Shown: positions 2,995 through 25,106 of the stretch, piece after piece | Layout: every line of letters starts with the position of its first letter | Position numbering within the stretch: position 1 is the first letter of the stretch | Source: a virus | Reading direction: 5' to 3' (one strand) | Length of the DNA: 37,022 nt | IMG/VR virus record: IMGVR_UViG_3300050821_005271 | Coordinates: 1-37,022 of that record | Position numbers and translations under genes: made by a program | The notes under the pieces: model-generated | Seen by the model: the letters and a program-made list of their open reading frames with translations, nothing else | What the model was told of the DNA's origin: nothing | Database searches by the model: none

Positions 2995-4102
2995 GGCGGC
3001 GCAGGAACGCATCCGCTTCATCTACGACAATTGCGACGACGTCGTCGTCTCCATGAGCGGCGGCAAGGATTCGACTGTCCTGTTCGAGCTCACTCGAGTC
3101 ATCGCCGCCGAGCGCGGCCGGCTGCCGGTGAAAGTGTTCTGGCTCGATCAGGAGGCCGAGTGGAAGGCGACCGGGACTTACATGGCCGCGGTCATGCGCG
3201 AGCCCGACGTCCGGCCTTTCTGGTTTCAAATCCCGTTCCGGCTGTCGAACAGCCTGTCATTCAGCAACAACTTTCTCAGCTGCTGGGCGGAGGCCGACCG
3301 GGAGAAATGGATTCGCGAGCAAGACCCGATCTCGATCAAGGTGAACCCGATCCCGGCCTACGATCGGTTTCATGATCTGATCGAGCGCCTGCCCTCGCAA
3401 TGCGATTGTGTTGGCAAGCAACACGTAGCCGTGCTGGTCGGCATGCGGGCGATGGAAAGCTCGGTCCGGCGGCTGACCATGACCGAGAAGAAACCCCACT
3501 TCAAAGGGATCACTTGGTGCCGGAAGACGCTCGCGAACACGCGCGTCTTCTGGCCGATCTATGACTGGCTCGACCGCGATATCTGGACGGCGATCGCCAA
3601 CCACGGCTGGCCCTACAATCGGGTTTATGACGCCTTCTACAAGTTCGGCAAGACCGGCCGGGAGATGCGGGTTTCAGCGCTGATCCACGAAACCGCTTGG
3701 CACTCGATCGAGCAGCTGCAGGAGACGGAGCCCGAGATGTACAACCGCTATCTCGGGCGGGTCGAAGGGGTGAATTGCTTCAACCACTTTGAGCGCCAGA
3801 TCATGCCGGATAAGCTGCCGGCGCATTTCGCCAACTGGCGCGACTATCGCGATTACCTGTTGGAGAACCTGACCGAGCCCGAGCACCGCCAGCGCTTCCG
3901 CAACCGATGGGCGAACCAAGACCAGGACCGTTGGCATCGGGTGCACGTCAAGGAGATCCTGATCAACGACCTGGACGGGACGCTGAACCAGAACGCCCGG
4001 ACCCGCTTCAAGATGGAGGACCGGCGCGTCCCCGGCGGCCTGTACGAGCAGCGCAAAGAGGCGCGCCGGCTCGCGGCCGACGCCCCGGATGGCCATGTCT
4101 GA
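2960..4102 (+). CDS. PAPS reductase/PP-loop family protein, IbrA-like (DUF3440 type)
   Basis: 380 residues. The ATP-pyrophosphatase PP-loop SGGKDST is at residues 33-39, preceded by a hydrophobic strand and followed by a helix and a VFWLDQEAEW strand. A second nucleotide-site element, GMRAMESSVRR, is at 161-171, and a WPIYDWLDRDIW segment near 198-209 is typical of the family. Scattered cysteines (108, 148, 150, 187, 273) could hold a metal cluster but do not form the classical assimilatory pattern. The C-terminal about 110 residues match what I know of DUF3440 proteins such as IbrA of E. coli. PP-loop enzymes of this kind activate a substrate with ATP, often for sulfur transfer; DndC of phosphorothioation systems is a relative. 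An IbrB/ParB-like gene lies two genes downstream, the known IbrA-IbrB pairing. The substrate is unknown. Confidence 0.85.
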   Translation: MTQNFSTKSVFEAAQERIRFIYDNCDDVVVSMSGGKDSTVLFELTRVIAAERGRLPVKVFWLDQEAEWKATGTYMAAVMREPDVRPFWFQIPFRLSNSLSFSNNFLSCWAEADREKWIREQDPISIKVNPIPAYDRFHDLIERLPSQCDCVGKQHVAVLVGMRAMESSVRRLTMTEKKPHFKGITWCRKTLANTRVFWPIYDWLDRDIWTAIANHGWPYNRVYDAFYKFGKTGREMRVSALIHETAWHSIEQLQETEPEMYNRYLGRVEGVNCFNHFERQIMPDKLPAHFANWRDYRDYLLENLTEPEHRQRFRNRWANQDQDRWHRVHVKEILINDLDGTLNQNARTRFKMEDRRVPGGLYEQRKEARRLAADAPDGHV

Positions 4103-11863: not shown

Positions 11864-12409
11864 ATGCCTAGACCCAACCCGATCGCCTTGCCGACGCAGG
11901 ATTACCTGCGCGCCTGCTTTTCCTACGATCCGGAGACGGGCGTGCTCACATGGCGGGTGCGACCGCGCGAGCATTTCGCGAGCGACCGGCAATGGCACGG
12001 AACTAACACAATGCGCGCCGGCAAAGTCGCCGGGCATTTTCGCGAGGACGGCTACTTCTACCTTGGCCTTGCTCAATCGTTTTATCTGGCTCACCGCATC
12101 ATCTGGAAGCTCATGACCGGCGAGGAGCCGCCGGAACAGATTGACCACCGCGATGTCGATCCCAGCAACAACCGTTGGGACAACTTGCGTTCGGCGAACC
12201 AGACCGAGCAGAATTGCAACAAACGCCTGCGGCAAATCAACGCCACTGGACGCCGAGGCGTCTATTTCGGAAGGGACGGAAAAGCGATAGCCCAGTTTAC
12301 CGCCGACGGCGTGACACGCCATCTTGGCGTCTTCGCCACGGTCGAGGAGGCGGGAGACTTCGCCGATGCTGTCAGACGCGAGGTCCATGGCGAGTTCTTC
12401 CACGGCTAG
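11864..12409 (+). CDS. HNH homing endonuclease with AP2-like DNA-binding domain
   Basis: 181 residues, starting at the ATG at 11864; an upstream in-frame start at 11807 would overlap the fibre gene and is rejected. The N-terminal SYDPETGVLTW segment and H77 (LAHRIIW) lead into the HNH core with IDHRD at 93-97, N102/N103 and the WDNLR motif at 105-109. Residues about 130-175 form an AP2-type beta-sheet DNA-binding domain (RGVYFGRDGKAIAQF...HLGVF). This is a free-standing homing endonuclease, a selfish element that cuts cognate sites in related phages. It lies antisense within the late operon between gp48 and a fibre gene; its stop shares a CTAG with the gp48 stop. All catalytic residues look intact. 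Confidence 0.92.
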   Translation: MPRPNPIALPTQDYLRACFSYDPETGVLTWRVRPREHFASDRQWHGTNTMRAGKVAGHFREDGYFYLGLAQSFYLAHRIIWKLMTGEEPPEQIDHRDVDPSNNRWDNLRSANQTEQNCNKRLRQINATGRRGVYFGRDGKAIAQFTADGVTRHLGVFATVEEAGDFADAVRREVHGEFFHG

Positions 12410-13125
12410 GGCGTCCCAGCCATGGGGTCGTCGTAGTCAAAGGGGGTGTAATCAAAGACCAAAAAACTATGTGCAGGTTTCCACCTCCATAAAAGACACT
12501 CAACTGCCAGAGGATTGCGGAACTCGAGATGATGATCGACGCCCGCCTGACCCGCGCCGGAGCGAAACCAAGTCAGACCCGTGTAACCGACCTGAGCGGT
12601 CCAGACGAAGCGGCCCTCGGGGGGTCCGATGTACCAACGATGAAGATCCTCTCCCGGTGGCCTCGTATCGCCGCAGCGGCTTATGCCCGCCATGAATGGC
12701 GACCACTCCGTGATGACGATCCGGAAGCCGAGCCACTCCATCAGGTTAATGAAATACTGACGCGATTGCCCGCCTTGCCAAGTCATCTTGGTGACGAGCA
12801 TCCGCTGCCGCTCGCCGATTGTTTGAACCTCGGGAAAGCACTCCTCTGGCAGGCCCCATGCGCGTTCCCATTCGGGGAGCAATTCGACCGTTCGCTGCGG
12901 ATCGGACTCGCGCTCGAGAAGGTCGGCGGCGCGGCCGTCGACGTAGCCGAAGAACCACGCCAGCGCATCGCACAGCCGGCGAATGACGCTCGTACGCGCG
13001 GTCGGCCACGCGTCGCCGCGCGGCATCAGCGTTTGAAAGCCCTCGGCGTAATCATCACCATTTCGCCGGACGTACTTGTCCAGTGTCATCATCGCGCGAA
13101 GCTGATCGAGCGAGAGCGGCTTCAT
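12406..13125 (-). CDS. Baseplate protein, Mu gp48-like (DUF2313/YmfQ family)
   Basis: 239 residues, start ATGA-coupled to the gp47-like gene. The family signature is seen in the order TLMPRGDAWP (residues about 32-41) near the N terminus, then a helical region ending with RDWERAWGLPEE-like residues (LPEWERAWGLPEEC, about 82-95) and RQRMLVTKMTWQGGQS (about 106-121). Mu gp48 connects the baseplate wedge to the tail fibres. The gene order gp45-46-47-48-fibre is the same as in Mu. The downstream fibre gene is separated by an HNH endonuclease gene, so its translation is no longer coupled to this one. Confidence 0.88.
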   Translation of the reverse strand: MKPLSLDQLRAMMTLDKYVRRNGDDYAEGFQTLMPRGDAWPTARTSVIRRLCDALAWFFGYVDGRAADLLERESDPQRTVELLPEWERAWGLPEECFPEVQTIGERQRMLVTKMTWQGGQSRQYFINLMEWLGFRIVITEWSPFMAGISRCGDTRPPGEDLHRWYIGPPEGRFVWTAQVGYTGLTWFRSGAGQAGVDHHLEFRNPLAVECLLWRWKPAHSFLVFDYTPFDYDDPMAGTP

Positions 13126-17945: not shown

Positions 17946-18788
17946 ATGGTGCTGAGCACCATGAGCACCTGGCACGACCTAGCGAAGTTGAGAGAAGAGA
18001 TCGCGCTCGCGAACGCAACGCGCGCCGACTTCTATGTCTATGTCCTATTCCGCGAAACCGGCGAGCCCTTCTATGTGGGCAAGGGCGTCAACGGTCGCTG
18101 GCTTGCTCACGAATGGGAGGCTCGCAATGGCGCGAAGGGCCACCGTTTCGCGATCATCCGTTCGATGCAAGCGCGTGGCCTCGAGATCCCGAAGGTTAAG
18201 CTCCACGAGGGCCTAACCGCCGTGACGGCACTCGCCTATGAGATCGAACTTATCGCGGCTATCGGACGTCGCCACGAGGGAGGACCCCTCGTCAATTCGA
18301 CGGCTGGCGGTGAAGGCGTTGTTGACGAGTCGCCAGAAGTTTACGCGAAGCGCCTTGATCGAAAAGCATCGCTAGCGACCCGCGCAAAGCTGTCGACTGC
18401 GCTTCGCGGCAAGAAAAAGGCGCCGGAGGCCGTCGCGAAGATACGGGCCGCCAACATTGGCAAGAAGCATACGCCAGAGGCTCGCGCGAAACAGCGAGCC
18501 GCAAAGTTGGGCAAGCCGGGCCACCGTCTGACGCCAGAGCATCGCGCCGCGATCAGCGCGGCCCAGCGAGGCAGGCCGGACGGACCGCTTTCGGACGAGC
18601 ATCGCGCTAAGATCAGCGCGGCGTTGAGCGGTAAGGTGCCCCATAAGTTCACGCCCGCCGCCCGCGCGAAAATGAGCGCCGCCAAGCGCGGTAAAACTCG
18701 CTCGCCGCACTCTGACGCGACCCGCGCCAATATGAGGGCGGCTTGGGAGCGACGAAAGGCGCGCGTTCAAAGCGGCGACGCCGCATAA
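17946..18788 (+). CDS. GIY-YIG homing endonuclease with NUMOD3-type repeats
   Basis: 280 residues; start at the ATG at 17946 (17961 is also possible). The GIY-YIG catalytic core is at residues 30-47 (YVYVLFRETGEPFYVGKG), with R51 and a later NSTAGGEG motif (about 117-124) carrying the catalytic glutamate. Residues about 145-270 are an array of six basic repeats of about 20 residues (KIRAANIGKKHTPEARAK type), the NUMOD3 DNA-binding module of phage homing endonucleases. It is antisense inside the late operon between the tape measure and gpN-like genes, overlapping the 3' end of the tape measure by 22 nt. A selfish element; catalytic residues look intact. Confidence 0.92.
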   Translation: MVLSTMSTWHDLAKLREEIALANATRADFYVYVLFRETGEPFYVGKGVNGRWLAHEWEARNGAKGHRFAIIRSMQARGLEIPKVKLHEGLTAVTALAYEIELIAAIGRRHEGGPLVNSTAGGEGVVDESPEVYAKRLDRKASLATRAKLSTALRGKKKAPEAVAKIRAANIGKKHTPEARAKQRAAKLGKPGHRLTPEHRAAISAAQRGRPDGPLSDEHRAKISAALSGKVPHKFTPAARAKMSAAKRGKTRSPHSDATRANMRAAWERRKARVQSGDAA

Positions 18789-21700
18789 TTGCGTGGGCCT
18801 TCTTGAGCAGGTTGCATCTGGGTCTGGCGGTTTTGTTCCACGGTTTTAAAAAGCCCTTCACCCGAGGCGGCGACCTTGGTTCCGGCCGGAGCATTAACGT
18901 CCACTGTTAATTTGCCAGTGCCCTCGACCTTTTGCGTGATCGAGCGATCGCTGTCGGCGTCGAGCATCGCCCGGCCGGTTCCGCTGCCCAGGCCTCGAGC
19001 CCGTTGCATCTTGTCGCGCTCGCCCGCCTTGCGCGCGTCCTCGATCCAGTCCGCGCCGCCCCAGCTGGCCTTCGAGCCGCCGCCGATATGGAGCGACTCC
19101 GCCCCCATGTAGCCCATCCCGGCGCCGACGCCGGTCGCGCCTTGCGCCACCGCTTCGCGGGTGAAGCCGATCATCCGCGCCCGGTCGGCCGGTACGCGCA
19201 TATCGAGGATCTTGCCGGTCTTCGGGTCGCGCAGTTTGACGTCGGCCGCGGCGCCGAGGTCGTGCCGGGTCGAGCCGGTGCGCTTGCCCGAGGTTCCGAT
19301 CTTGGCCTGGCCGCCGGAATAGACTTCGACCTGCAGGTCGTGCGCCAGCGCCGCCGCCTCGAGTTGGCGCTTGAGCTCAGGCTGAAGCGCCATCTGGCGC
19401 GTCCTGGCGACCTTGGCTTGATTCTCGCTAACCCGGCTGCCGAGCGTGAAGTCGGACGGGCCGCTCAGGTTGCTATGATCGTGGCCGTCGCCGGGATAAT
19501 GGCCGCCGCCGAGTTGCTCGACCGGCTTGCCGGAACTGCCGGGGCTCGGCGTCGTCGACGGCAGCAAGCCGCCTCCCCGAAACTTGGTCCCGCCATAGAC
19601 CTGCCCTTGCATCTTGTTCAGATAGTCGATGTTGGTGCCCGCCCCGTAGGCTCTCGGGTCGGCGGCGGTGAAGTCCTTTTGGCTGGTTGGGACGCGGTGC
19701 AGCAAGTCTTGTGCGGCGCCCTCGATCGAGGCGGTGCGCGCTTCATTCGGCCCCTTGCGATAGGCCGCGCTCGGGCCGGGTTGAAACTTCGTCCCCGTCA
19801 CCGCCTGGAATTGGTTGGGGGCGCTGAGCGCCCCGCCGATGCCGCCCTTGTGATCGCGAGCGCGATTCAGGATCGAGCCCATGATCATCGCCTGTTCCTC
19901 GGGCGAATTCTTGCCGCCCGATTCGGCGTGGGTGGCGCGCATCAATTGGTCGTATTCGCCGGACGTGATCGACTTGCCGAGATAGGCCTCGGCCGCGGCC
20001 TTGCCGGAGCCCATCCCTGGCCGGCCGGCCGTCTGTTGGGCCGGCTCCGGCGCGCCGCTCGTGTCCGCGCCCATCGACGGCGCCCAGGACGCGCTCGCCC
20101 CGCCTCCCCCCGAAGAGCCTCCTCCGCCGCTGTAACCGCCCCCGCCTCCGCCTCCGAAGCCGGGCAGGCCGCCTAGGCCGCGCATGCGAACACCCCCGCC
20201 ACCGCCCGCCCCTGGCCCGCCTGAGCCCCCGCCGGCCTCAATCGAGCGGTTGAGGATGGCCAGTTCCTCGGTCAGCGCCTTAAGCTGGGTAGACTGATCC
20301 TCGTTTGAGGCGTTCAGCTCTCTCATTTGGTGGGTCTGCTCGGCGACGAGGCGCGTCCCCTCGGAGGAGCCGCCGCCGCGATTGGGCATGAACAGTTCCG
20401 GCCCCGCCTCGCCGACCATGTAGTTCGATCCCTGGCTGACCGGGCCGCCGCTCGCCCGCCGCTGCCACGGGGCCGGTTCCTTAGGGTCCTCAAGCCCGAG
20501 CATCGCCCGGAGCTTGGAGCGCAGACCGTGGCCGCTCTCCGAATCTTGCTTCATCGCCTGTAGGATCGGCGCGCCAGGAATGCCGCCGGCCAAGACCTCG
20601 CCGATACCGTGACCGCTCGTCGCTCCGCGGTGGCCCCGCATCGCGCCGGACGCGGCGCCGGATAAGCCTCGCGCGCCGAACATCTCGGCGGCGAGCGCCG
20701 CGCCGTAAATTCCGGTCGAGGCCCAACTCGGGATGATCGTGCCGCTTTGGCCGGGTCGGAAAAGTTCCGGACCGTTCTCGCCAACGACGCTGAGTTCACC
20801 CGCGCCGAGCGGCCCGCCGGTCGCCTTGCCAGTGATCTTGCTCCATAAGCCTTTCTTCGCCGTCGGGCTTGCGGTGGCGGCGGTAGGTGCGACGCCGTAG
20901 TCGCCGCCGCCTCGGCCGGCCATGCCCATCGCGGGAGGCGCAGCGCCGCCGAAGCCGAGCCCCTTGGCGATCGCCGGCCCCAGCTTGTTCAAGCCCGTCG
21001 CCTCGCCGGTCGCCTTGCCCGCCGCCGCGCTCGCCGCATTGACGGTGTTGAGGACATTGGCCGCGCCCGTGCCCGCCGCGTTGATGCCCCGTCCAAGGGT
21101 CTTTAGCCAATCCGGCGGCTCGAAATTGCGCATGGTGTTGACCGCGCTTTCGATGCCGTCCGCCATCTCCTTGACCAGGACGGCGATCGGCTTGAGCGCC
21201 GCCGTCGCCGCCGGCGTAGCGAGCGCGTGGATCGAGTCGCTGATCTTGCCCCAGCTTTGTCCGATCTCGGTGGTGACCGTGTTATATTCCGTCGCATCGG
21301 CGATGCGTTGGCTGAGCGCCGCCTTTTGCGCGTCGGTGGCGCTTTTCAACGTCTCCCGTAACTCGTCGATATTGGGGACGCCGAGGCGAGCCAGGAAATT
21401 CGCCTTCGCCTCGGCCGCGCGCGCCGGATTGTTGGTTTCGCTTAACACATTCCTAAAGACGTTCTCGGCCGCATCCGCGATCTTGTTGCCATAGGTCGCG
21501 ATATCCTTGGGCGCGTTTTTCAGGTCGTCGATAAACGCCTGCATGGCGCCGCGGTTCTCGCCGTGCAAGCCGCGCATCAGATCGCGCATAAGCTGGCTGT
21601 TGACGCGCCCGATATCGGCCATAGACGTCGCAATGCCAGCGATGTTTTGCCGCGCCGTCTGAGCGTCGACGCCGGCGCGCGCGAACGCGCCGACCGCCGC

Positions 21701-22015
21701 CTTGACGTCCGCAGCATCGACCCCGAGCCGCTTGGAGAACTGGCCGAGATCCTGCATCTTGGTCGTGTATTCGCCGATGCTGCCCAACGCCTTGGTGACG
21801 GCGACGCCTACCGCCGCTACGCCTACGCTGGCGATGCCGAACGACTTGGCCATGTTGAGCGCGGCGTTGGTACCGCCCTCGAAACCTCCGCGCAGGCCCT
21901 TCATGTGGTCGGTGAGGTCAGAGGTCTGACGCCGCAACCGCTCCATGCCAAGGCCGGCCGGACCGCCGCCAAGGTTGGCGATCGCGCCCCTGATCTTGGT
22001 GAGTTGCGAGGTCAC
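18767..22015 (-). CDS. Tape measure protein with SleB-like and M15-like peptidoglycan hydrolase domains
   Basis: 1082 residues from the GTG at 22015. A 17-residue in-frame extension begins at an ATC at 22066, directly behind a GAGGAG, and reads ATEYESLRLSVSLTDN, which looks like the normal tape-measure N terminus. Residues about 55-80 are hydrophobic (possible membrane segment). Helical regions cover about 80-300. Two copies of a VGExGPELF motif are at about 411-420 and 534-543. After a glycine linker (about 594-645) follow a SleB-like wall hydrolase (about 671-806, E698 and E706 region) and an M15-like peptidase (about 880-995, H918, D925, H976). The protein sets tail length and probably helps breach the cell wall on entry. 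Residue numbers are from the GTG. Confidence 0.92.
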   Translation of the reverse strand: MTSQLTKIRGAIANLGGGPAGLGMERLRRQTSDLTDHMKGLRGGFEGGTNAALNMAKSFGIASVGVAAVGVAVTKALGSIGEYTTKMQDLGQFSKRLGVDAADVKAAVGAFARAGVDAQTARQNIAGIATSMADIGRVNSQLMRDLMRGLHGENRGAMQAFIDDLKNAPKDIATYGNKIADAAENVFRNVLSETNNPARAAEAKANFLARLGVPNIDELRETLKSATDAQKAALSQRIADATEYNTVTTEIGQSWGKISDSIHALATPAATAALKPIAVLVKEMADGIESAVNTMRNFEPPDWLKTLGRGINAAGTGAANVLNTVNAASAAAGKATGEATGLNKLGPAIAKGLGFGGAAPPAMGMAGRGGGDYGVAPTAATASPTAKKGLWSKITGKATGGPLGAGELSVVGENGPELFRPGQSGTIIPSWASTGIYGAALAAEMFGARGLSGAASGAMRGHRGATSGHGIGEVLAGGIPGAPILQAMKQDSESGHGLRSKLRAMLGLEDPKEPAPWQRRASGGPVSQGSNYMVGEAGPELFMPNRGGGSSEGTRLVAEQTHQMRELNASNEDQSTQLKALTEELAILNRSIEAGGGSGGPGAGGGGGVRMRGLGGLPGFGGGGGGGYSGGGGSSGGGGASASWAPSMGADTSGAPEPAQQTAGRPGMGSGKAAAEAYLGKSITSGEYDQLMRATHAESGGKNSPEEQAMIMGSILNRARDHKGGIGGALSAPNQFQAVTGTKFQPGPSAAYRKGPNEARTASIEGAAQDLLHRVPTSQKDFTAADPRAYGAGTNIDYLNKMQGQVYGGTKFRGGGLLPSTTPSPGSSGKPVEQLGGGHYPGDGHDHSNLSGPSDFTLGSRVSENQAKVARTRQMALQPELKRQLEAAALAHDLQVEVYSGGQAKIGTSGKRTGSTRHDLGAAADVKLRDPKTGKILDMRVPADRARMIGFTREAVAQGATGVGAGMGYMGAESLHIGGGSKASWGGADWIEDARKAGERDKMQRARGLGSGTGRAMLDADSDRSITQKVEGTGKLTVDVNAPAGTKVAASGEGLFKTVEQNRQTQMQPAQEGPRNYAASPL

Positions 22016-22072
22016 GTTATCGGTCAGCGAGACCGATAAGCGCAGACTTTCATATTCGGTGGCGATCGGACG

Positions 22073-22294
22073 TTACTCCTCTCGGGCGGCGTCGGCCGCC
22101 GCGCGCTCTCGGCGCTGAACGGCCCGCAGCCGGATGGTGTGATCCATGTGCCGTTGCAGATCGGGGAGCGGCATGGCGAGAAACACTTCCGGGCTTTGGC
22201 TGTAGAAGTGCGCCAGCCGATACGCGTCTAAGACGGGGTCGGCTCCCACGTCCTCCGGTTTGGGAGGAGAATCCGCTGCATGAAGAACGAGCAC
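22073..22294 (-). CDS. Tail assembly chaperone frameshift extension (T-like part)
   Basis: The 73-codon reading frame from the GTG at 22294 is shown for reference, but expression is expected by -1 frameshifting from the upstream chaperone gene at CCCAAAC (22258-22264); only about 61 residues downstream of the slip would then be added. The sequence is helical with a LDAYRLAHFYSQSPEVFLAMPLPDLQRHMDHTIR segment and a basic, alanine-rich C terminus. This is the gpGT arrangement known from lambda and other dsDNA phages including Mu-like ones. The stop (TAA, 22073-22075) is in the same frame as the tape measure gene that follows. Confidence 0.82.
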   Translation of the reverse strand: MLVLHAADSPPKPEDVGADPVLDAYRLAHFYSQSPEVFLAMPLPDLQRHMDHTIRLRAVQRRERAAADAAREE

Positions 22295-22773
22295 GAGATC
22301 CAGTCGCGCGCGTCAAGCTGCTCGATCATCGGCGGGAAAACGTCCGAGAGCCTCGCGAGCATCAGCGTCATCTTCTGCTCGTCTACGATCACGTCGCCCT
22401 GGCTGTTCAGCCGGACGGGGTTGCCGCACTGGCTGATATCGCCGGCGGTCGGCGCACGGATCATAAGCTCATGGATGATCCGGTTTTTGGTGTCGCGCGT
22501 CGGCTTGTAAAGCAGCTTGAGCTTGATCGGCCATTCGATGTCTTCGGCCGGCGCGTCGAGGTCGATCGGCGGCGGCGCGTTCCGGTCTTTGTCCAGCTTG
22601 GCCACCTCGTCGGCCGGCGGCTCGGGCGCGCGTTCTTCGACGTGCGGCCCCTTCGGCGCCTGATAGATGACCTTCGGCTTGCGTCGCTCGATCCCGTCCA
22701 AACCTTCGTCGTTGGGCGAGATCGAAGGATCGTCGGCCTCGCGGACGAAGCCTTCACGCATTGTCGTGTTCAT
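22073..22773 (-). CDS. Predicted -1 frameshift fusion of tail assembly chaperones (gpGT-like)
   Basis: Ribosomes that slip at CCCAAAC (22258-22264) would make a fusion of about 233 residues: 172 from the upstream frame and about 61 from the downstream frame. In lambda-type phages the minor fusion recruits the tube protein to the tape measure. The in-frame heptamer position, the 67-nt overlap of the frames and the location between tube and tape measure genes all fit. No frameshift efficiency can be stated from sequence. The join follows the AAC codon, with CCG as the next codon in the new frame. Confidence 0.8.
22228..22773 (-). CDS. Tail assembly chaperone (gp41/E/14 family, G-like)
   Basis: 181 residues with an ATG at 22773 and a Shine-Dalgarno (GGAGGAA) upstream. 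The N-terminal half is disordered, charged and proline-rich. The C-terminal half carries the family region: WPIKLKLLYKPT (about 102-113), a helix, and the MIRAPTAGDISQCGNP stretch (about 128-143), then LARLSDVFPPMIEQLDARDW (about 144-163). This matches the phage tail assembly chaperone family seen in P2 gpE and Mu gp41 neighbours. It is the major product; a fraction should be extended by frameshifting into the next frame. Confidence 0.88.
   Translation of the reverse strand: MNTTMREGFVREADDPSISPNDEGLDGIERRKPKVIYQAPKGPHVEERAPEPPADEVAKLDKDRNAPPPIDLDAPAEDIEWPIKLKLLYKPTRDTKNRIIHELMIRAPTAGDISQCGNPVRLNSQGDVIVDEQKMTLMLARLSDVFPPMIEQLDARDWISCSFFMQRILLPNRRTWEPTPS
22258..22264 (-). promoter_or_regulatory. 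Programmed -1 ribosomal frameshift slippery site CCCAAAC
   Basis: The minus-strand sequence CTC CCA AAC CGG contains the X XXY YYZ heptamer C CCA AAC in exactly the phase needed: codons CCA-AAC re-pair as CCC-AAA after a one-base backward slip, then translation continues CCG GAG GAC. It lies 10 codons before the zero-frame stop (22228) and inside the 67-nt overlap of the two frames. This is the classical tail chaperone frameshift signal. Confidence 0.88.
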
Positions 22774-23198: not shown

Positions 23199-25106
23199 TT
23201 AGGCCGCGATCTGCTCGTCGAGGCCGCGGTTGTATTGCAGGCGGAACTGCGCCAGCACGGCGAAGATGCGCAGCTGGTTGATGAGGTCCGGCGGATAGAG
23301 GACGTTCAGCCGGTTCGGGTTGTTCGCATCGCGCTCGACGATGAGATGCGCCTTGAAGTTGCGGATGTCCTCGCAAAGCCCGTTGAACATGTCGACGCGA
23401 TATTGCGACACCAGCTCGGCCTTGATGATGCCGGGCGTCGCCACCCGTTGGCCGGGACCGAACCTCGTGCCGTCGTTGGCAAGCTTGCAACGCGCATACT
23501 TGGTCGTGATGACCTGGCGCTGGTTGCGCAGGAGCGCCGCCAGGGTCGAGAGGGTCGTCACCAGCTCGTAGGCGTCATCAGCGAAGCCATAGAGGTTAAG
23601 CTGATACATCGTCGTTTCCCGCGAGATCATCGGGTTGACGCCGTTCGCGCTCGGCAATTGCGTCGCTATCCCATAGGTCGCGAGGAGATTGATCTCGGAG
23701 AGGATGAACCGCTGGTCGGGCGGCGCCAGGAGGATGCCCTCGAGCATGAGGGTTTGCAGCGGGCGCGCCGGATCGTTGGTGAGCGCTCGAGCCGCCTTGG
23801 CGCAATAGGCCGCGGCCCATTCGTAAGCTGGCGACGGCGATCCGACTTCGAAGCCCATGGGCGAGACTTGCGCGGCGTTACGGCCGCTCGAGCCGAAGGC
23901 GATGAGATCCGAATAGGAGCCGCGCCGGGCCGAGTAGATACCGCCGTAAAGCTGACGCATCCAGCCCCAGCGGCCATTGTCGCTAAAGCCGAATTCAAAC
24001 TCCCAAGCTTGGAGCGAAACCGTGTCGGTATAGGGCATGCCGAGATATTCGACCGCCGTCTCGCCGAGGTTGGAGATCGTGTCGGTGAAGTCCGGGACCA
24101 TCGTTCCGCCGGTGAGCATTCCTGTCGCCGGGAGGGTAAGCTCGAGGCCGGGCGGGAGGATCTGGCCGCCGATCGCGCCGAAGTAATTGAGGCTGATCCG
24201 GATGTCGTTCCCGTTCTGGCCGGCAAACTTGCAGGTGATCGTCAAGGGCGTCGGCGCGAGGCGAGCGGCGCGACGACGGCCGGGGAGCGTCACCGCCGTT
24301 TCGGTGAGAACCGGAAGCGATGTATTGACCGGCGCGGCAAGCGGCGCGGTGACCGGGCCTAGCGGGAGGCTATCGGCCGTAGCGCTGCCCTCACTGTTGG
24401 TCGCGGTGACCTTAGCCACGATCATGTTGCCGACATCGGCGTCGGCGAGCGTGTAGCTCTGACCGGTTTCGCCGGGGATCGTCGTGCCGCCGCTCTCCCA
24501 CGCATAGGTGAACGTCGGCGCCGGATTGCCGGTCCAGGTGCCGGGGGTAACGTTGACCGCGACGCCGACGTCCGGAACGCCCGTCAAGCCAGGGGCGGTC
24601 TGGTTGACCGGCGGCGCGGCTACCATCGTCGTCGAGGCGGTGACCGGAAGCCACTCGCGATCGTTGATCGCTTCCGCGATCGCGTCGGCGATCTCCTCCT
24701 CGGTGTCCGTCTCGCCAACGCCGATCGGGACGTGGTCGGCGCCAATGTAAAGATGGATCGTACCGGAGGCGGTGGGAGGCGCCGCGACGGTGATCACGCC
24801 GCTCGCCCGAGCCGCGTTATTCGGCGCCATAACGCCGACGCCCCAGACCTCGTTGGCGAAATTGTTGGCGAAGTAGGCCTTGAACATCCGCGACAATTCC
24901 GAGCCGATGCCGAAGGCCTCGTCGGCCTGCGCCTGGGTGGCGATCGGCCGGGCGACGTCCGGCGCCGCCGAGCCGCCGGCGAGCATGATTCCGGTGAGCA
25001 ACGCCGGCATTCGCGGCGTGCCGAGGCCGGCCATCGAGGCGTCAAGCTCGGCCCAGTAAAGCGGAACTTTCCAGCCGGCCGGAATTTGTGAGAAAGCGAT
25101 AGGCAT
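23199..25106 (-). CDS. Contractile tail sheath protein (Mu gpL-like) with inserted Ig-like domain
   Basis: 635 residues, ATG at 25106 with AGGAGA upstream. The N-terminal sheath part (IPAGWKVPLYWAELDASMAG; KAYFANNFANEVWGVGV) and the C-terminal part with YSDLIAFGSSGRN (about 393-405) and a KYARCKLANDGTRFGPGQRV region match Mu-type sheaths, normally about 495-510 residues. Residues about 163-267 are extra: they form an Ig-like/PKD-like repeat (VNQTAPGLTGVPDVG...GTWTGNPAPTFTYAWE...YTLADADVG) placed between the strands VTAST and LTITCKFAGQNGNDI. The domain is the same type as the eight-copy repeats of the two proteins at 31919-34615. It should project from the sheath surface and could bind host surface glycans (inference). 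Confidence 0.92.
   Translation of the reverse strand: MPIAFSQIPAGWKVPLYWAELDASMAGLGTPRMPALLTGIMLAGGSAAPDVARPIATQAQADEAFGIGSELSRMFKAYFANNFANEVWGVGVMAPNNAARASGVITVAAPPTASGTIHLYIGADHVPIGVGETDTEEEIADAIAEAINDREWLPVTASTTMVAAPPVNQTAPGLTGVPDVGVAVNVTPGTWTGNPAPTFTYAWESGGTTIPGETGQSYTLADADVGNMIVAKVTATNSEGSATADSLPLGPVTAPLAAPVNTSLPVLTETAVTLPGRRRAARLAPTPLTITCKFAGQNGNDIRISLNYFGAIGGQILPPGLELTLPATGMLTGGTMVPDFTDTISNLGETAVEYLGMPYTDTVSLQAWEFEFGFSDNGRWGWMRQLYGGIYSARRGSYSDLIAFGSSGRNAAQVSPMGFEVGSPSPAYEWAAAYCAKAARALTNDPARPLQTLMLEGILLAPPDQRFILSEINLLATYGIATQLPSANGVNPMISRETTMYQLNLYGFADDAYELVTTLSTLAALLRNQRQVITTKYARCKLANDGTRFGPGQRVATPGIIKAELVSQYRVDMFNGLCEDIRNFKAHLIVERDANNPNRLNVLYPPDLINQLRIFAVLAQFRLQYNRGLDEQIAA

Follow-up and report, generated by a model that had tools for sequence, protein, structure and literature searches.

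A predicted −1 frameshift in a phage tail assembly chaperone gene and the likely replacement of its slippery site

Frameshifting in tail chaperone genes is well known and is conserved though the sequences differ between distant phages, among which the slippery heptamers reportedly vary as well. The heptamer of lambda G/GT is GGGAAAG, and P2 E/E′ uses a −1 shift on T TTT TTG. For lambda G/GT the −1 frameshift has been reviewed (PMC5009743, citing Levin 1993; Xu 2004, 2013, 2014); the gpGT fusion links the tape measure to the tail shaft subunits, and a ratio of about 30:1 matters (PMC5009743). Frameshift efficiency is 2–3 times higher in P2 and related phages, and Mu itself has been reported to use −2 frameshifting (PMC5009743).

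In the present study, a candidate site of this kind was analysed in the window, the whole 37,022 nt stretch of the virus record IMGVR_UViG_3300050821_005271. A lambda G/GT-type −1 programmed frameshift of the tail assembly chaperone (TAC) gene at CCCAAAC, where the slip site has turned over, is proposed with a probability of roughly 85 %. It is the best explanation for the anatomy of the locus, the phase and rarity of the heptamer, the sites in the relatives and the purifying selection on the extension, from which the slippage event and its efficiency are predicted.

Overlapping frames between the tail tube and tape measure genes

The order of the tail genes is tail sheath, tail tube, TAC, extension, tape measure and then DNA circularisation protein, with two overlapping frames sitting between the tail tube gene and the tape measure. 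The TAC matches Pfam PF10109 Phage_TAC_7 with 26.2 bits, above the gathering cut-off of 25. The features are as follows.

22258..22264, minus strand: slippery heptamer C CCA AAC, the only in-phase XXXYYYZ of the overlap
22228..22773, minus strand: zero-frame TAC, 181 aa, PF10109 Phage_TAC_7
22073..22258, minus strand: −1 frame extension after the slip, 61 codons (PEDVGADPVLDAYRLAHFY...) and TAA; predicted 233 aa fusion
22228..22312, minus strand: 85 nt in which the zero and −1 frames are both open and in which the slip has to fall
22264..22272, minus strand: putative ancestral T-run site, ATT CTC CTC in the window versus TTT TTT TTG/TTA in L004–L006
22777..23136, minus strand: tail tube protein (PF10618), preceding TAC
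23199..25106, minus strand: tail sheath protein (PF04984/PF17482), interrupted by an insert spanning roughly aa 139–257
18767..22066, minus strand: tape measure protein, following the extension; conserved N-terminus from the ATC codon at 22066–22064

The heptamer is read on the minus strand from 22264 to 22258 (GTTTGGG on the plus strand) in the phase C CCA AAC, as codons P171–N172 of the 181 aa ORF, and these zero-frame codons, CCA AAC, could re-pair as CCC AAA. At the 3′ end of TAC (CAG CGG ATT CTC CTC CCA AAC CGG AGG ACG TGG GAG CCG ACC CCG TCT TAG, minus strand) the zero-frame stop is the tenth codon past N172, following nine sense codons. The −1 frame, which starts 85 nt before the end of this stop and is open for 61 codons past the slip, runs to the TAA at 22075–22073, giving a predicted fusion of 172 + 61 = 233 aa, and the next open frame is the tape measure. 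The initial annotation had described an in-phase CCCAAAC at 22258–22264, a stop ten codons further on and a −1 frame of about 61 codons ending just before the tape measure, all of which is confirmed. It had also called the heptamer textbook. The site is indeed an in-phase XXXYYYZ, but this label suits eukaryotic viruses better; in Escherichia coli, the X_XX.A_AA.C motifs, A_AA.A_AA.C and G_GG.A_AA.C among them, shift inefficiently but are probably used by insertion sequences (PMC4066793). With the IS3 pseudoknot, shifting above background occurs in E. coli on 61 out of the 64 X_XX.Z_ZZ.N motifs, and CCCAAAC does not belong to the three failures (PMC4066793). No measured frameshift value for CCCAAAC was found in open literature texts.

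In-phase heptamers are rare in the window. Across 9,174 codons of its other genes there are 13 in-phase XXXYYYZ, only two of which have A or T as YYY and none of which is CCCAAAN, and the chance of an occurrence in a 28-codon overlap is about 3.9 % for any XXXYYYZ and 0.6 % where YYY is A or T. Synonymous-codon resampling of the TAC protein gave 5.1 % for any such heptamer and 2.9 % for CCCAAAN; CCA makes up 8 % of the proline codons in the other genes. A chance origin of the heptamer is unlikely on this frequency count, and it is the comparative evidence that decides. Elsewhere in the genes of the window, T TTT TTG occurs in phase just once, at 12460–12466 (minus strand), about 20 codons short of the end of the ORF at 12406–13125; the −1 frame there closes after two codons, such that a shift would just truncate the protein.

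Slippage within the overlap at some place other than CCCAAAC, for example on a single tRNA at the C-rich tetramer in CTC CTC CCA, is improbable. The overlap is long, at 85 nt, and C_CC.N tetramers including C_CCA are weakly shifty in E. coli, but slippage on the best heptamers exceeds that on the best tetramers about tenfold (PMC4066793), and the one in-phase XXXYYYZ available lies 6 nt from the putative ancestral site.

The tape measure has a conserved N-terminus (IATEYESLRLSVSLTDN) upstream of the GTG (22015) picked by ORF calling. The ATC at 22064–22066 (minus strand) aligns with the tape measure starts of relatives, which are ATG in L086 and GTG in L002 and L005. Among 37 loci compared, only the window, L004 and L006 are without a canonical start, the aligned codon being ATC in all three, and an AGGAG-type Shine–Dalgarno sequence precedes it in the window and L006. 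This suggests that translation of the tape measure starts at AUC in these three loci; L004 also has an alternative start, CTG, three codons upstream. Insertions are found at different points of the tail module in this group: L003 (2969–3640) has one separating tube and TAC that by eye resembles a GIY-YIG endonuclease gene, in L002 (2572–3600) a gene resembling a DNA methylase separates the extension from the tape measure, and in the window a GIY-YIG-like ORF lies past the tape measure (17946–18788, plus strand). The insert in the sheath protein matches PHROG virion decoration and major tail protein families and is probably an Ig-like domain. A PDB search gave no match. The extension of the window did not match Pfam PF06528 Phage_P2_GpE, and one member of the extension alignment matched it weakly (E = 0.21).

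Slip sites in related phages and a probable slip-site replacement

Relatives were gathered from the tail tube protein, and their TAC and extension were located by profile HMM. Both frames were found in 81 sequences, including the window, or 72 loci once identical sites had been removed. The extension is in the −1 frame in every one of the sequences in which both frames are readable (81/81). The slip site is T TTT TTN in 68 of the 72 loci, where it lies at a conserved Phe-Phe-Leu-Pro, G TTT TTT in two (L061 and L081) and CCCAAAC in the remaining two, the window and L002, the TAC of which is 92 % identical to that of the window. The G TTT TTT sites, at the end of TAC, have six T and a mismatched P-site position, and possibly slip by one tRNA only.

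Seven cultured phages that carry a Mu-like tail module and have been annotated (from Serratia, Bordetella, Stutzerimonas, Citrobacter, Pantoea, Yersinia and Edwardsiella) likewise show T TTT TTN together with an open −1 extension; the annotation of each lists the short TAC alone and no frameshift product. The Silvanigrella phage (L104) has T TTT TTC. Bradyrhizobium prophages, found by searching genome contigs with the tail tube, all carry the T-run, and because they are among the relatives an alphaproteobacterial host is plausible for the window. A second scan of viral contigs, using the tube alignment, returned essentially the same loci. No relative was found with the TAC alignment in genome contigs, nor was there any match to TAC by tblastn among cultured phages. 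A DNA pattern search of viral contigs for further bearers of CCCAAAC returned only the contig of L002 and L106, L107 and L109; the last three were rejected as the flanks do not translate into TAC.

The tree was based on TAC and extension, plus the tail tube where the script found one, and with few columns many forks are unresolved. The window and L002 group together (96/99), followed by L004/L005 (97/88), with L006 outside. As L004, L005 and L006, next to the window and L002 in the tree, all bear the T-run, parsimony favours the T-run as the ancestral state. In L005, CGC TTT TTT TTG CCG AAT aligns codon by codon with CGG ATT CTC CTC CCA AAC in the window: Phe-Phe becomes Ile-Leu, the Leu codon changes synonymously and the Pro and Asn residues are retained (CCG to CCA, AAT to AAC). 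In this alignment the T-run heptamer that is in phase in L005 falls on 22270–22264, and the new one at 22264–22258 is thus 6 nt downstream. In both the window and L002 the T-run is erased at 22264..22272 (minus strand). It appears that the T-run was erased by the Phe-Phe to Ile-Leu change and synonymous recoding, while CCCAAAC arose from further synonymous changes within the conserved Leu-Pro-Asn.

It is likely that this is a natural slip-site replacement, in which the frameshift has been rebuilt at a new position with an unrelated heptamer, through mostly synonymous changes, with the predicted fusion protein kept. The initial annotation had counted loss of the heptamer in close relatives keeping both frames against frameshifting. 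Such relatives do lack CCCAAAC, yet the idea stands because the site appears to have been replaced rather than lost, the relatives carrying T TTT TTN 6–9 nt upstream. CCCAAAC is confined to two related contigs, between which conservation is inseparable from short divergence. In L003, with a tail tube 97 % identical, the contig stops before the slip site and is of no help in dating the switch. The replacement maps to a single branch that separates close relatives, and the states before and after it are both visible. The less usual part is that a site retained as a T-run across phages with widely differing hosts is here seen to be swapped within a set of close relatives. If this is true, selection would hold low-level slippage and not a particular heptamer, and CCCAAAC would shift usefully in a probably alphaproteobacterial host despite belonging to a class that is weak in E. 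coli. The matched pair of T TTT TTG and C CCA AAC in a homologous context would serve for testing how slip-site strength is tuned.

Transcriptional rather than ribosomal slippage in the T-run relatives, and by descent in the window, is very improbable. The relatives have runs of 6–8 T, and long T runs can make RNA polymerase slip (PMC3711429), but more than half of the loci have just 6–7 T. At the end of the TAC gene in the window there is no run of at least six T, and in both the window and L002 the overlap is without a homopolymer run, yet the extension is under selection. The CCCAAAC version therefore argues for ribosomal over transcriptional frameshifting.

The main alternative is that the extension is translated alone, from an internal start or coupled to termination of TAC, with no fusion in this lineage, although this is unlikely. 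Candidate −1 frame starts exist in the overlap, among them GTG 22294 and the GTG in GAC GTG GGA just past the heptamer, and 52 of the 72 loci have a start codon between the slip site and the conserved domain. Further out among the relatives, Paraburkholderia phage IPK (L103, an UNVERIFIED record; 3084–3365) also looks to have lost the slip site: TTC TTC replaces the T-run and the −1 extension opens just 10 nt or so before the zero-frame stop, leaving almost no overlap. Frameshifting may have been lost in this phage and the extension expressed separately, which would mean that members of the group can lose their slip sites. Against internal initiation, a strong Shine–Dalgarno sequence precedes an internal −1 start in only 1 of the 72 loci, and the T-run, for which a separately initiated gene would have no need, is near-universal in the relatives.

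Selection on the extension and the proposed mechanism

Between the window and L002 there are 14 base differences in the 50 extension codons past the zero-frame stop. Ten of these (10/14) are at third positions of the −1 frame, and only two amino acids change, against 9.6 expected under random placement, a number as low as two being reached in none of 20,000 simulations. Compared with L002, L004, L005 and L006, the extension of the window has a dN/dS of 0.13–0.31. The split between the window and L002 postdates the replacement, because both share CCCAAAC, and purifying selection on the extension since that split indicates that it is still translated in the lineage of the window. That CCCAAAC arose by chance and that the extension is decaying as a remnant is thus highly improbable: some in-phase heptamer would fall in the overlap by chance in 4–5 % of cases, but the extension protein is conserved between the window and L002 far past random placement (0/20,000; dN/dS 0.13), with neither indels nor stops. 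Programmed −1 frameshifting of the tail chaperone, as initially annotated, is supported by the gene order, the Phage_TAC_7 match, the −1 relation in 81/81 sequences and this selection.

With frameshifting at CCCAAAC, most ribosomes would make the 181 aa TAC, and a minority would slip one base back at C CCA AAC to produce TAC up to N172 followed by the 61 aa extension. The roles of the two products are proposed by analogy with lambda, the extension probably bringing tail tube subunits to the tape measure; in lambda, frameshifting at a low level is enough. An earlier T TTT TTN would have been lost to substitutions, CCCAAAC 6 nt downstream taking over. As for stimulators, the 71 nt past the heptamer are predicted to fold no more stably than shuffled sequences (z = 0.13), downstream folding across the 72 loci is unconvincing (mean z −0.77 with simple mononucleotide shuffles) and there is no upstream Shine–Dalgarno-like stimulator in the 72 loci.

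Comparison with known systems

The −1 shifts of insertion sequences on A_AAA_AAC and G_GGA_AAC represent the same bacterial use of XXXAAAC despite low efficiency (PMC4066793), although they differ from the TAC of the window in gene family and purpose. As regards the gp41 module of Mu, tail-tube relatives in culture are annotated as Mup38–43-like (DUF2635, sheath, tube, TAC, tape measure and DNA circularisation); however, the window and all sequences examined have the −1 frame, not the +1/−2 frame. P2 E/E′ is likewise a contractile-tail chaperone with the T-run type of site that is shared by the relatives of the window, and the Pfam family name of TAC covers 'E, or 41 or 14', but the window itself has no T-run and its extension no Phage_P2_GpE match. 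The locus resembles lambda G/GT in its position before the tape measure, the −1 direction, a heptamer in phase towards the 3′ end of the first gene and a short C-terminal extension, and differs from it in the heptamer, which is CCCAAAC in the window and GGGAAAG in lambda.
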